Source: Candidatus Manganitrophus morganii (GTDB lineage: Bacteria > Nitrospirota > Nitrospiria > SBBL01 > Manganitrophaceae). From it: a stretch of 64,000 nucleotides of DNA. The stretch lies in NCBI GenBank assembly GCA_021651055.1, contig JAJHOH010000001.1, forward strand, positions 1,426,001 through 1,490,000. The letters are read 5' to 3'. Under the pieces are notes generated by a model. That model had not been told where the DNA came from, made no database searches, and saw only the letters and a list, made by a program, of their open reading frames with translations. Position 1 is the first letter of the stretch, and every line of letters starts with the position of its first letter. Shown in pieces: positions 25,918 through 29,862 of this stretch. Position numbers and translations under genes: made by a program.

Positions 25918-25944
25918 AGAACAGTAACCGTGGAGGCCCATATT

Positions 25945-26409
25945 ATGGATACGAAACAGGTTCTTCAGATTCTGAATCAAGCGCTCCAGATCGAATATGC
26001 CGCTGGGATTCAATATTTGCAGCACAGCTTTCTCGTGCAGGGAATCGACCGGCGCGTCTTCGCCGACTATTTCCGCAGTCAGAGCGAGAGCTCGCTCAAC
26101 CAGGCCAAACAGATCGGCGACCACATCGTCAATTTGGGAGGGCTCCCGACCGTGGAGCCGTACGCGATCAAACAGAGCACCGATCTGAAAGAAATGCTTC
26201 AGCTCGATCTTGAACTCGAACGGACCGGTTTAAAAATTTATCAAGAGGGGATCAAGGCCGCGGCAGAAGAGATGCCCTTGAAATTTTTCTTCGAAGACCA
26301 AGCCTATCATGAATACCAAGACGTCAATGAACTGGAGAAACTGCTGGATCAGAAGAAGGTCAGTGTCACTGAAAAAGAGGTTCAGCTCAAGAAAGTGAAA
26401 AGTGCGTAG
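25945..26409 (+). CDS. Bacterioferritin/ferritin-like protein with incomplete diiron site
   Basis: 154-residue four-helix protein of the ferritin-like fold. Helices A (QALQIEYAAGIQYLQHSFL), B (SQSESSLNQAKQIGDHI), C (LDLELERTGLKIY) and D (FEDQAYHEYQDVNELE) line up with bacterioferritin by eye. The helix A Glu, helix C Glu and helix D His are present. The helix B positions equivalent to Glu51 and His54 appear to be Ser and Gln, and the Glu127 equivalent appears to be Gln. The diiron centre may therefore be absent or rearranged. The ATG at 25945 has GGAGG upstream. Single-gene unit; iron storage, Dps-like or binding roles are possible. Confidence 0.75.
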   Translation: MDTKQVLQILNQALQIEYAAGIQYLQHSFLVQGIDRRVFADYFRSQSESSLNQAKQIGDHIVNLGGLPTVEPYAIKQSTDLKEMLQLDLELERTGLKIYQEGIKAAAEEMPLKFFFEDQAYHEYQDVNELEKLLDQKKVSVTEKEVQLKKVKSA

Positions 26410-26466: not shown

Positions 26467-26955
26467 TCACTCGGTCGAGAGCGTGGGGGATTCGACCTTG
26501 AACGCGATCCGCATTCCCATCGCGTAGTGTCCCTCTTTTTGTCCATTCTCCGTCTCAACGATATTGCAGAGAAGGACATAGGACCCCGGCTCCAGATCGA
26601 GGGTCAGCTCTTTCTCCGTTGCCGGCGCAAACGGCTCGATCTCTCCCTGGATTCTCCCCGCCGCCGCCTCATCGACCCGATCATCCCTCAGAGAGAGGGC
26701 ATCGGCCGGCAGATCGGTTCTCAGAATCACCAGTTCGTGATCCTCCGTGCCGCGATTCGCCGTCTGAAAGGTGATCCGGCCGGGTCGGACCGTCCCCCGA
26801 TCGACCGCAACGCTCCATTCCCTGAGGGTGACTTGAACCTCCGATGGACTCGCATCCGATTTCAGGTTTCCCGATCCAGGGCTGCAACCGGCGAAGACAA
26901 TCCCCAAGAGGAAAAACACCGCCCCAAAATGCAAAAACACTCTCTCAAACTGCAT
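26467..26955 (-). CDS. Cupredoxin-like lipoprotein
   Basis: 162-residue lipoprotein: signal peptide with lipobox FAGC (Cys24), then a cupredoxin beta-sandwich. Candidate copper ligands are His in EDHELVI, Cys in YVLLCNI, His in GHYAMGM and one Met in the same stretch, the order expected for a type 1 copper site. It could be a periplasmic electron carrier or copper-binding protein. The Cys-to-His spacing (about 13 residues, with a charged insert) is longer than in plastocyanin. Convergent with the ferritin-like gene. Confidence 0.75.
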   Translation of the reverse strand: MQFERVFLHFGAVFFLLGIVFAGCSPGSGNLKSDASPSEVQVTLREWSVAVDRGTVRPGRITFQTANRGTEDHELVILRTDLPADALSLRDDRVDEAAAGRIQGEIEPFAPATEKELTLDLEPGSYVLLCNIVETENGQKEGHYAMGMRIAFKVESPTLSTE

Positions 26956-27107: not shown

Positions 27108-27554
27108 TTAAAACTTTCGGTAATCTTCGAGAATCTTTTCTCTCGACGGATCGGAAGTCCGGCGCGCGCTGTATTCGAACAGTCCGATCCTGACTCCCCT
27201 GACCAACAGTTGCCGAACGCGCTCCCGGCTCAGCCCGATCGTTCGGCCGACCGCCTCCAGCGTTCCTTTCTCCAGATAGAGCCGATGGATCTCCCGCAGC
27301 CGCTCCACCTTCGAGGGCTGCCCGGGAACCCCTCCGGAAGAGGGCGCGACTTCCAAGCCGGCGCGAATCTTCTTCTCGACATAATGCGAGATGGGGCGCG
27401 CCTCCAAGATCTTTCGCAGCGTCGTCGGGTTCACGCTGCATCGCGAGGAGAGCTCCAGAAGATCGATCTCGTCCCGGACGATTTTCGCGACTTCGGAAAA
27501 AAGCGACGGGACGCTTTCATCAAGGGCGATCCCTCCTGAGCTTGTCTGCAACAT
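27108..27554 (-). CDS. HTH protein with sigma-70 region 4-like motif
   Basis: 148 residues from the ATG at 27554, which has GGAGG about six bases upstream. The C-terminal half contains TLEAVGRTIGLSRERVRQLL, the helix-turn-helix of sigma factor region 4. The N-terminal half (LLELSSRCSVNPTTLRKIL) may form a second HTH. There is no region 2, so it is unlikely to be a complete sigma factor. It is the last gene of the minus-strand set running from 29862 and probably is a DNA-binding regulator; targets unknown. Confidence 0.65.
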   Translation of the reverse strand: MLQTSSGGIALDESVPSLFSEVAKIVRDEIDLLELSSRCSVNPTTLRKILEARPISHYVEKKIRAGLEVAPSSGGVPGQPSKVERLREIHRLYLEKGTLEAVGRTIGLSRERVRQLLVRGVRIGLFEYSARRTSDPSREKILEDYRKF

Positions 27555-27596
27555 CTTCTCCCTCCTGTCGTTCTTACGAGAAACAAACACGGAACC

Positions 27597-27806
27597 TCAC
27601 CCTTCCCATTTGGAGAAGAGAACCGCCTCTTCCTCCCGCTCCTGCGCCCGCTCGAAGAGATCGGCGAGGGCGGCGAACTCCTCCCGGTTGAAATGGAGCA
27701 TGATGTTCCGAAGGCTGACGTGATAGCCGTCGCACCGGCATCGATCGATCGAACCGAATTCGGACTTCGCAAGGGGAACGGAATGATGGCCTGATTCGCT
27801 GCTCAT
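27597..27806 (-). CDS. Small protein of an unnamed CRCxxYHV family (paralogue 1)
   Basis: 69 residues. The core CRCDGYHVSLRNIMLHFNRE is followed by FAALADLFERAQ. A paralogue with the same pattern (Cys-x-Cys, x-x-Tyr-His-Val, Leu-His, then a hydrophobic helix) is encoded at 29638-29862 in the same transcription direction. The strong ribosome site AAAGGAGG before the ATG at 27806 supports translation. The two Cys and two His could bind a metal. I cannot name a function; DUF6686-like small proteins are a possible relation that I cannot confirm. Confidence 0.65.
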   Translation of the reverse strand: MSSESGHHSVPLAKSEFGSIDRCRCDGYHVSLRNIMLHFNREEFAALADLFERAQEREEEAVLFSKWEG

Positions 27807-27854
27807 GAAAAACCTCCTTTGCATGTGAGTGTTAACATTTTCTCGCTGGAATGC

Positions 27855-29561
27855 CTATCGACGACGGGAAGCGGCCGCTTCGACCGGTCGTTTTCCATCC
27901 ATCGCCGCGATCTCCCGCTCGATTCCCGCCTCCAGCCATCGGGTGAGGACCGGATGGGGGGTGAATCCCTTTCCGTTGATCTCATAGTCCTCCCCCTCTT
28001 TGAGGCCGACCTCCTCCAGAAGGCTTTTATACGGCCCTGCGCCCCGGAGCCGGTGCGAGATCAGCACGACCCGCCCGTTTCGCTTCCCCGCTTCGATCAT
28101 CTCCTTGAGCTTCGCCACCGCCTCCTTCCGCTTCTCCGGCCAATCCTCGCGGATCGTGGCGGGAAGGATCGCCTTGAGCTCGGCGCAATGGGGATCTTTC
28201 CGAAGCCGCTCGATCTGGCGGCCCATGGCCGAAAGCCACCGGGCATCGACCGCATCGTCCCCCGCGCCGTGGGCCACCAGGATGACCGTCTCCTCCGAGG
28301 ACTTCCGGCTGATTTCGGTGATCCGGTCGTGGAGAATCTCGGCCAGCGCCGGATCTTCTTCATAACCGCCGAAGGTGGAGAAGACCGCGCCGCTTCGAAC
28401 CTGAGGAGGGGGAGGCCCGTCATGGTCATGCCCGGACGGAGCGGCGGAGAGCCCCAGGAGGTAGTCGGTGTCTTCCTTCATCTGGTCGGAGAGAGAATAC
28501 ATCCGGACGAAAACGATCCGGCGGACCCCTTTTTCCTCCAGGCGGGAAACCGCTTTCTGGAGGGTGACCGGATCGGCCATGCCGTAGGCCATCTCGATTC
28601 GGTAGCGGGACTTCAGCGGCGCGATCACCGCTTCGACGGCGTCGTTCCAGGGGAGGGTCGCGCCGTGCGGCATGATCACCACCCCGGTTTCTTCCGGAGA
28701 AGCGGGAAGATGGGCGTTCGCCGTTTGCTTCAACCAGAGGAGAAGGTTGGGATGGGGAAAAATCTCCTGGCCGTCATAGACGACGTCAAGCTCCTTAAGC
28801 TTATCGGCCAGCCATCGGGTGAGCGACATGTGGCTGTCGAACTTGGGACCGATGAAGAAGGGAACGACGAGGGTTCTCCCCTTCTTCGCCGCCGTCTTGA
28901 CGATCATCTCTTCGACTTCACGGCTCTTCTTCTCCCGCAGCTCCGCTTCGGCCTCACGGTCGTAGTAGATCCCGATTTGGGTCTCCTTGAATGGACGATA
29001 GCGGGAAACATAGTCGGTAAGGGACCGCAGATCGGCGCGAAGCGCCGCTTCGCCGGCTTCGTCGACCGCGCCGATCCCCAGCACCACCAGCCGTTCTTGG
29101 TCCGGATCCCGGCTCAATGCTTCCACGCGGTCAAGAAGAATCTGCGCGGTGAGATGGCTCTCCCCCATCGAGGGGGCCCATCGGATCGTTCCCCCCGCGG
29201 CGTAAACCGGAAGGTGCGGCGCCACCTTTTTCAAGATCGGATCGGCCGACGAGAGAAAAAGGGGAACGGCAACGATCTCGGTCGCCCCGGCCCGTTTCAG
29301 ATCAGCGACCGCGCGGGTCAGATATTCGGAGTATTCCCCCCCGACGCGGTTGTATCCTCGGCCGACCCAAGCGAGCGCGGCAGTGTAGTCCCTCTGAAAT
29401 GCCTCATACAGCGCTTCAATTTCCTGATTTCCGAGAAAGCCCCGGTCCGGAGCGACCAGAAGAAAGCCGGTCTTCGACGTCACGCTTCCTTCGGCGCTGG
29501 CGCGCGGCGTCGCGAGCGAAAAAGAGACGAAACAAACGATGACTCCGAAAATGGCCTGCAT
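27855..29561 (-). CDS. Exported protein with CbiX-like chelatase domains
   Basis: 568 residues: signal peptide ending near ASA (about residue 23), followed by at least three CbiX-like alpha/beta segments. Recognisable parts are FLLVAPDRGF, VVPFFIGPKFDSHM, VVIMPHGATLPWNDAVEA with its partner VRRIVFVRMYSLSD, and VILVAHGAGDDAVDARW. A His/Asp/Pro-rich linker (SGHDHDGPPPP) lies between the last two. CbiX/SirB enzymes insert Co, Ni or Fe into sirohydrochlorin-type tetrapyrroles in the cytoplasm using His residues; an exported multi-domain form is unusual. Metal handling outside the cytoplasm is an inference. Its neighbours are small Cys/His proteins. Confidence 0.78.
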   Translation of the reverse strand: MQAIFGVIVCFVSFSLATPRASAEGSVTSKTGFLLVAPDRGFLGNQEIEALYEAFQRDYTAALAWVGRGYNRVGGEYSEYLTRAVADLKRAGATEIVAVPLFLSSADPILKKVAPHLPVYAAGGTIRWAPSMGESHLTAQILLDRVEALSRDPDQERLVVLGIGAVDEAGEAALRADLRSLTDYVSRYRPFKETQIGIYYDREAEAELREKKSREVEEMIVKTAAKKGRTLVVPFFIGPKFDSHMSLTRWLADKLKELDVVYDGQEIFPHPNLLLWLKQTANAHLPASPEETGVVIMPHGATLPWNDAVEAVIAPLKSRYRIEMAYGMADPVTLQKAVSRLEEKGVRRIVFVRMYSLSDQMKEDTDYLLGLSAAPSGHDHDGPPPPQVRSGAVFSTFGGYEEDPALAEILHDRITEISRKSSEETVILVAHGAGDDAVDARWLSAMGRQIERLRKDPHCAELKAILPATIREDWPEKRKEAVAKLKEMIEAGKRNGRVVLISHRLRGAGPYKSLLEEVGLKEGEDYEINGKGFTPHPVLTRWLEAGIEREIAAMDGKRPVEAAASRRR

Positions 29562-29637
29562 TTTTCTTCCTCCTTACTTCAGATCCTCGAAGGACGCGAG
29601 CGGCGCGCTGGATCGATCCTGCCTCGACCTCTCCTCT

Positions 29638-29862
29638 TTATTTTCTCTCCAAACCTGCCTGCGGCATCGGAGAAAGCGCTCCGGCTCCAGCCGCTCTCCC
29701 CATCATCAGTTTAAAAACCCGAGCGACCCTATCAAATTGAGCCGCCGTCAGATGCAGCGTGGCCGTATGAATTTGAACATGGTAGATCCCGCATCGACAC
29801 TGCCAAACGGTGCAATCTCGGTTGGAGAACAGGGCCTCTCCCCGACAGGACGGCGGTTCCAT
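29638..29862 (-). CDS. Small protein of an unnamed CRCxxYHV family (paralogue 2)
   Basis: 74 residues with CQCR-like start of the core: WQCRCGIYHVQIHTATLHL, then a helix (AAQFDRVARVFKLMMG) and a low-complexity tail. It is clearly related to the product of 27597-27806. Extra Cys residues (CRGEALF, RDCTVW) give more possible metal ligands. A GAGGAG site lies about 11 bases before the ATG. It starts just after a terminator for the upstream unit, so it may have its own promoter, and it precedes the CbiX-like gene. Function unknown. Confidence 0.62.
   Translation of the reverse strand: MEPPSCRGEALFSNRDCTVWQCRCGIYHVQIHTATLHLTAAQFDRVARVFKLMMGRAAGAGALSPMPQAGLERK

Follow-up and report, generated by a model that had tools for sequence, protein, structure and literature searches.

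What does a protein made of several CbiX-like segments do once it has left the cytoplasm, and does it deal with free metal ions or with metal held in a larger complex? The gene that raises this question lies in a window of 64,000 nucleotides (the whole stretch of DNA that was analysed) from the genome of Candidatus Manganitrophus morganii, which comprises 4.29 Mb on a single contig. A sequence-only reading had proposed a periplasmic metal-binding protein or metallochaperone rather than a tetrapyrrole chelatase.

27855..29561, minus strand: putatively exported, four-lobed CbiX/class II chelatase-like protein of 568 aa (P0001), recognised from its ORF, PF01903, an AF2 model and homologues
29493..29561, minus strand: residues 1-23, an N-terminus that resembles a signal peptide with probable cleavage behind ASA, judged by eye and from the N-termini of homologues, with low pLDDT over residues 1-28

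The reading frame begins with an ATG at 29561, has the ribosome-binding site TAAGGAGG and an in-frame TAA five codons upstream, and its product has full-length homologues with identities of 31-96%, which mark the antisense frame at 27819-29714 (plus strand) as the spurious one. The N-terminus, read by eye, is signal-like, ends at an ASA/EG boundary and has an n-region without Lys or Arg; the N-termini of homologues (MKKRILNFVV..., MRKKRSKRFV...) are typical signal peptides. These sequence features suggest that the protein is exported and resides in the periplasm, in agreement with the sequence-only reading, although that reading's premise of an always cytoplasmic CbiX/SirB type was too strong, since exported class II proteins (CbiK-P, FetB) are known. 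Elsewhere in the genome, separate CbiX matches comprise a 310-aa protein (L109) and a 181-aa ORF (L111), both without a signal peptide by eye, and a third ORF (L110) with two strong lobes that lies, also by eye, among apparent cobalamin-biosynthesis genes.

In sequence class, the protein exceeds the curated cut-off of the Pfam CbiX family (PF01903, 26.8 bits against 22), which all 14 aligned family members match at E<=0.1. The Ferrochelatase and CbiK Pfam models match it weakly, under their cut-offs, the CfbA model NF033198 gives 22.8 bits against an equivalog cut-off of 120, and PF02514 (CobN) gives no match at E<=10. Searching the PDB with the single 568-aa sequence found nothing; a profile of 14 sequences recovered CbiX, CfbA and SirB chains (E 0.001 to 0.06) and, marginally, Porphyromonas gingivalis FetB (E 0.19). 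An S25e ribosomal chain recovered by the same profile (E 0.0031) was taken as a chance match.

The AlphaFold (AF2) model (pLDDT 87.5, pTM 0.85) resolves what had been described as three or more CbiX-like segments into four lobes:

29106..29474, minus strand: lobe A, residues 30-152, with an invariant DRG (39-41) replacing the CbiX HGS region
28710..29105, minus strand: lobe B, residues 153-284, with invariant Met245 and His270
28302..28700, minus strand: lobe C, residues 288-420
27906..28301, minus strand: lobe D, residues 421-552, carrying the REDWPEKR motif

Profile-profile comparison of the lobe alignments paired A with C (probability 96.6, E 5e-10), B with D (probability 98.4, E 4e-15) and AB with CD (probability 99.4, E 6e-22), and A with B, C with D, A with D and B with C were not significantly alike, a pattern that identifies a tandem duplication of a two-lobed chelatase. 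The protein is therefore two fused class II chelatase-like units, A-B and C-D. The C+D unit alone is present in four loci (L043-L046), in exported proteins or apparent lipoproteins, with lipoprotein-like N-termini in three of the four.

Compared with the PDB, the whole model matched SirB (Z 20.6, rmsd 2.7 A, 234 aligned), CpfC (Z 18.2), the periplasmic CbiK of Desulfovibrio vulgaris (Z 16.8) and FetB (Z 16.3, 227 aligned). The C+D unit modelled alone (pLDDT 91.2, pTM 0.87) gave SirB (Z 18.1, 3.4 A, 234 aligned), Paracoccus CbiX (Z 16.3), the D. vulgaris periplasmic CbiK (Z about 16, 15.9-16.1) and FetB (Z 15.4, 3.5 A, 222 aligned). Sugar-binding periplasmic proteins and LacI-type domains also ranked high for this unit in Foldseek, with larger rmsd and lower TM-scores than SirB, a resemblance familiar from two-lobed folds. 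The models place the four-lobed protein in the class II chelatase fold, in which two alpha/beta lobes face a cleft as in SirB, HemH and CbiK, and its sequence places it in the Pfam CbiX family. In the four-lobed model (m5415ce95b6f5), SirB aligned over residues 30-564 and ferrochelatases (HemH) over 27-288.

The positions that bear on how much of a chelatase metal site these units have kept are the following:

28665..28667, minus strand: codon of His299, equivalent to CfbA His9 and SirB His10 in the HMMER alignment, kept in 39/39 members
28482..28484, minus strand: codon of Gln360, at the CfbA His75 position in the HMMER alignment to CfbA
28395..28448, minus strand: residues 372-389, a short His/Asp linker that coincides in the alignment with the His-rich stretch of CfbA
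28269..28271, minus strand: codon of His431, first-strand His of lobe D, kept in 38/39 members

Metal is reported to be bound in CfbA by Glu42 together with two His of each subunit, His9 and His75, and in SirB by His10, Glu43 and His76 (PMC11301274); for Paracoccus CbiX, two His in the C-terminal half, His127 and His187, are described as essential (PMC4063343). Among the 39 full-length members of the family, His299, Met245 and His270 are invariant, the one exception at His431 is a gap, and position 360 is occupied by His in 16, by Gln in 14 (the window copy included) and by Ser in 9. His431 follows the first strand of lobe D, and this position makes it the probable equivalent of His127 in Paracoccus CbiX (Pp-CbiX) and His145 in CbiK. 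The N-terminal unit (lobes A and B) has no His at either first-strand position, the invariant DRG standing in place. Judged from these alignments, only the C-terminal unit keeps part of the chelatase site, since the conserved His299 and His431 belong to C+D and the corresponding residues are absent from A+B; the N-terminal unit is degenerate yet strongly conserved.

A loss of all metal-ligand His residues, which the sequence-only reading had named as contrary to its proposal, has not occurred; in the comparison with CbiX the first ligand stands as His299, and the second canonical one is Gln360 in the window copy. Because the metal-binding His pair is incomplete there, we do not file the protein as a functional CbiX, SirB or CfbA enzyme. 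The label of a cytoplasmic CbiX enzyme was also rejected, on account of the Gln at the CfbA His75 position and the signal-like N-terminus.

In 16 of the 39 members the His299/His360 pair is complete in lobe C, and with His431 their C-terminal unit has three His of the catalytic type (299, 360 and 431), a set that resembles the engineered R134H variant of SirB (PMC11301274). This pair, together with the precedent of FetB (PMC13402209) and the additional exported CbiX that adjoins the receptor in several Nitrospirales loci, a two-lobed protein with both His, speaks for an exported chelatase that would insert metal into a tetrapyrrole, by analogy with FetB and its Mn-protoporphyrin. Such an activity nevertheless appears very improbable, given Gln360 in the window copy and no evident supply of free exported tetrapyrrole in an autotroph.

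The His/Asp linker bears on another proposal, that of the sequence-only reading: a periplasmic protein that binds or chaperones free metal ions and has nothing to do with tetrapyrroles. The His/Asp-rich linker noted there is real, if short (GHDHD); it aligns where M. jannaschii CfbA has its His-rich stretch, and at least two His are found in 26 of 39 members, a frequency that fits binding of free ions, as do the degenerate active site and the Metal_resist protein, cupredoxin and ferritin encoded nearby. However, nine of the 39 members lack His in the linker altogether, the conserved residues of the family sit in the lobes, and the receptor and HmuY context described below indicates a bulky ligand, which leaves a free-ion carrier quite improbable. 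The linker was likewise set aside as a shared metal site, for want of His in those nine members.

Of 58 close genomes, 12 contain full-length homologues, and by profile at E<=1e-30 so do 20 of 295 sampled Nitrospirota genomes; the best named relatives belong to Candidatus Manganitrophaceae and to Manganitrophus plasmids. A search of genome contigs gave 18 loci whose MAG titles, taken as labelled for the phylum names, read Nitrospirota, Gammaproteobacteria, Nitrospinaceae, KSB1, Bacteroidota, Acidobacteria, Planctomycetota and Parvularculaceae, together with Luteimonas (Luteimonas lumbrici has the short form, L046, 16 bp behind a receptor that exceeds the heme cut-off). Some copies of the gene are broken by stops or frameshifts (L041/L049 on plasmid CP114562; L106, G002:C8) with intact-looking copies elsewhere, and the plasmid copies L047/L048 have no ordinary start codon ahead of the signal-like region.

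In the window, the four-lobed gene is accompanied by genes that point towards metal handling, as had been supposed, and that are as previously described, the cupredoxin match being weak:

25930..26409, plus strand: ferritin-like protein (PF00210, E 4.2e-21)
26467..26955, minus strand: exported cupredoxin-like protein (weak match)
27108..27590, minus strand: sigma-70 region 4-like HTH protein (PF04545, 28.2 bits)
27597..27824, minus strand: small Cys/His protein of 75 aa, weakly DUF6686-like (E 0.0023, under the cut-off)
29638..29862, minus strand: small Cys/His protein of 74 aa, placed in one family with its 75-aa paralogue by iterated HMM

The HTH gene and the small Cys/His neighbours recur in related genomes: the former is kept beside the four-lobed gene in Manganitrophaceae, and the 74-aa protein adjoins that gene also in L082, L102, L103 and L105. 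The two small proteins resemble each other over a C-x-C-x2-YHV region and flank the four-lobed gene in several related genomes. The cupredoxin-like protein falls into one iterated-HMM group with the cupredoxins and HmuY proteins of other loci; it also has a weak EfeO N-terminal match (32.3 bits against a cut-off of 270).

An HMM census of the whole 64-kb window found no TonB receptor, the nearest relative locus (L105) has none nearby either, and the genome itself yielded no HmuY match. Among relatives, a TonB receptor lies within 5 kb of 19 of 24 copies from 21 genomes, against 1.03 expected from random placement of 233 plug domains in 71.4 Mb, a figure to be read with the loci of related genomes not being independent. 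Across 42 full-length rows, which include near-duplicates (L029/L104 on the same contig, L047/L048, window/L105) and some short stretches, the retrieved DNA holds a receptor in 30, within 5 kb in 28, and on the same strand as the gene in all 30. PepSY_TM, TonB, ExbB, ExbD and ferritins are also found near the four-lobed genes of relatives.

On Manganitrophus plasmids the four-lobed gene is followed by genes for a Metal_resist-domain protein, an HTH protein, a TonB receptor, PepSY_TM and ferritin; in L082, L102 and L103, from the same order of Nitrospirota, the series is small protein, four-lobed gene, small protein, TonB receptor and HmuY. L094 (Nitrospirales) presents a MacB-type transporter, TonB, the four-lobed gene, a TonB receptor, an exported two-lobed CbiX, a PepSY_TM-like protein and ferritins, and L092, L095 and L096 are similarly arranged. 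The separate two-lobed CbiX of L094 (11908-12882, plus strand), which matches CfbA 6m25 (E 1.4e-9) and keeps both catalytic-type His (NHGSRS, PHTFDDIP), has counterparts beside the receptor in L085, L088, L091-L093, L095, L096 and L108.

HmuY exceeds its Pfam cut-off in seven loci (L031, L032, L039, L040, L082, L102 and L103), and in the five HmuY-bearing genomes searched (G012, G015, G017, G313 and G314) it occurs only on the contig of the four-lobed gene; it is absent from 19 of 22 and 4 of 6 genomes in two searched sets. The HmuY and cupredoxin neighbours may be connected through one protein of L031 (2389-3966, plus strand), which has HmuY as its N-terminal domain and a weak match to cupredoxins in its C-terminal part. 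The CobN/HmuS family (PF02514) was found in 0 of 12 genomes, a count to be taken with a Bacteroides control that was also negative, so that the model's sight of HmuS is unproven.

Scanning with NCBIfam models covered the 24 linked receptors and six unlinked ones of the source genome. The top-scoring model is a heme one for 18 of 24 linked receptors and for 1 of 6 unlinked; that one, L114, reaches 207 bits, short of the heme cut-off, which no unlinked receptor exceeds. A curated heme-receptor cut-off is passed by six linked receptors (L030, L034, L046, L083, L084 and L086), and 17 of the 24 pass no curated cut-off. In a loose reading by eye of eight receptors, the FRxP-His-NPxL motif was seen in L034, L083, L084 and L086, and a strict FRAP/NPNL expression with His was positive in L034 only. 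L089 alone passes a siderophore cut-off; the best model is a siderophore one for L047 and L087 and a B12 one for L040, the L047 plasmid receptors resemble RhtA, and L090 and L101 gave no match at the thresholds used. Altogether, TonB-dependent uptake with heme-type receptors and HmuY across relatives points towards a tetrapyrrole, and the earlier clause "rather than as a tetrapyrrole chelatase" finds no support. What stands of the metallochaperone proposal is export, as judged from sequence, the multi-lobed CbiX-like build and the metal-handling context, and what falls is its exclusion of tetrapyrroles.

The same loci also bear on a scheme of periplasmic iron release from a siderophore or metallophore, in which the complex would enter through the TonB receptor, PepSY_TM would reduce the iron, the four-lobed protein would take up iron or ligand, and a MacAB-like pump would re-export the ligand, as described for pyoverdine recycling by FpvG, FpvC, FpvF and PvdRT (PMC6954188). 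PepSY_TM family proteins beside the four-lobed gene, the ABC ATPase, FtsX/MacB-type permease and TonB that precede it in L094, the L089 receptor and the RhtA-like receptors of L047 all accord with it; set against the 18 linked receptors with a best heme model, six of them over the cut-off, and against HmuY in seven loci, the scheme, which is the main rival to a heme reading, seems unlikely. The only PepSY_TM gene found in the source genome (L107, G000:C1:1193892-1197141) adjoins a Fiu-like catecholate siderophore receptor.

We consider it somewhat probable that this putatively exported two-unit class II chelatase-like protein serves a TonB-dependent route by which a metal complex is acquired; heme or some other metal-tetrapyrrole is the most likely cargo. 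The observations behind this are the lobes, their duplication, the fold match, the conserved His residues and the gene neighbours in relatives. Because relatives of the gene adjoin outer-membrane importers of heme or iron, it is probable that the protein deals, outside the cytoplasm, with heme or chelated iron that has been imported; its most likely role would be that of a periplasmic handling factor for a tetrapyrrole or for chelated iron, with heme as the ligand that we infer. An outer-membrane TonB receptor, joined in some lineages by the hemophore HmuY, would admit the complex to the periplasm, where it would be held in the C+D cleft near His299 and His431; the protein might then pass the ring on or aid the exit of iron through metal release or exchange, and the freed iron could go to ferritin. 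FetB and HmuS are precedents for tasks of this kind.

A more specific proposal, tentative and rather doubtful, is that of a class II periplasmic heme de-chelatase or metal exchanger, which would fill the place of the class I HmuS in hmuYR-like loci of those Nitrospirota, Gammaproteobacteria and Bacteroidota that are without HmuS. Ring-sparing removal of iron from heme outside the bacterial cytoplasm is largely an open question. If the proposal were true, organisms that use heme iron would include free-living chemolithoautotrophs, among them Manganitrophus and relatives of Nitrospira, and one could test directly whether proteins of the ferrochelatase type can run in reverse in nature, a question of long standing. 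Even if the protein only binds its ligand, no exported chelatase with four lobes in tandem, encoded near receptor, hemophore and ferritin genes, has been described as far as literature searches show.

Among known systems, SirB, CbiX and CfbA share with the four-lobed protein the fold (they are the best structural matches), the Pfam CbiX family and His299 at the position of CfbA His9. They have one or two lobes, whereas the window protein has four and is probably exported, with both first-strand His lost from its N-terminal unit and Gln at the His75 position in this copy. FetB (IhtB) of P. gingivalis, a lipoprotein, offers an exported class II fold with a link to heme and matches both units. 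Its solved structure (PDB 9b86) has 261 residues and one unit against two here, and a review credits FetB with the formation of Mn-protoporphyrin in that species (PMC13402209). CbiK-P, the periplasmic cobaltochelatase of D. vulgaris (PDB 2xvz), likewise has an exported class II fold. It is a single two-lobed unit that inserts cobalt, unlike the two-unit protein described here. We know of no TonB-receptor link for CbiK-P. DR2241 of Deinococcus radiodurans (PDB 2jh3), multi-domain by its structure title, is comparable through its chelatase-like part, which Foldseek matched to C+D (E 5.8e-05).

HmuS, from the hmuYRSTUV operons of Bacteroidota, is exported and accompanied by HmuY and a TonB heme receptor, as in loci of the relatives. 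This class I protein is reported to remove iron from heme and to be the first de-chelatase characterised in detail; heme is described as held by Met79 and His254, and the head and neck domains as distantly like class II chelatases (PMC12583661). Iron removal from heme has also been reported for P. gingivalis HmuS (PMC13227078). The difference lies in class, HmuS being of class I (CobN-type) and the four-lobed protein of the class II fold. Literature searches found nothing that joins Nitrospira, a TonB-dependent receptor and sirohydrochlorin, and what pairs HmuY with a class II chelatase concerns HmuS only; the Manganitrophaceae comparison in PMC9040806 makes no mention of TonB, chelatase or siderophore. 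The four-lobed protein may work like FetB or like HmuS, while being neither.
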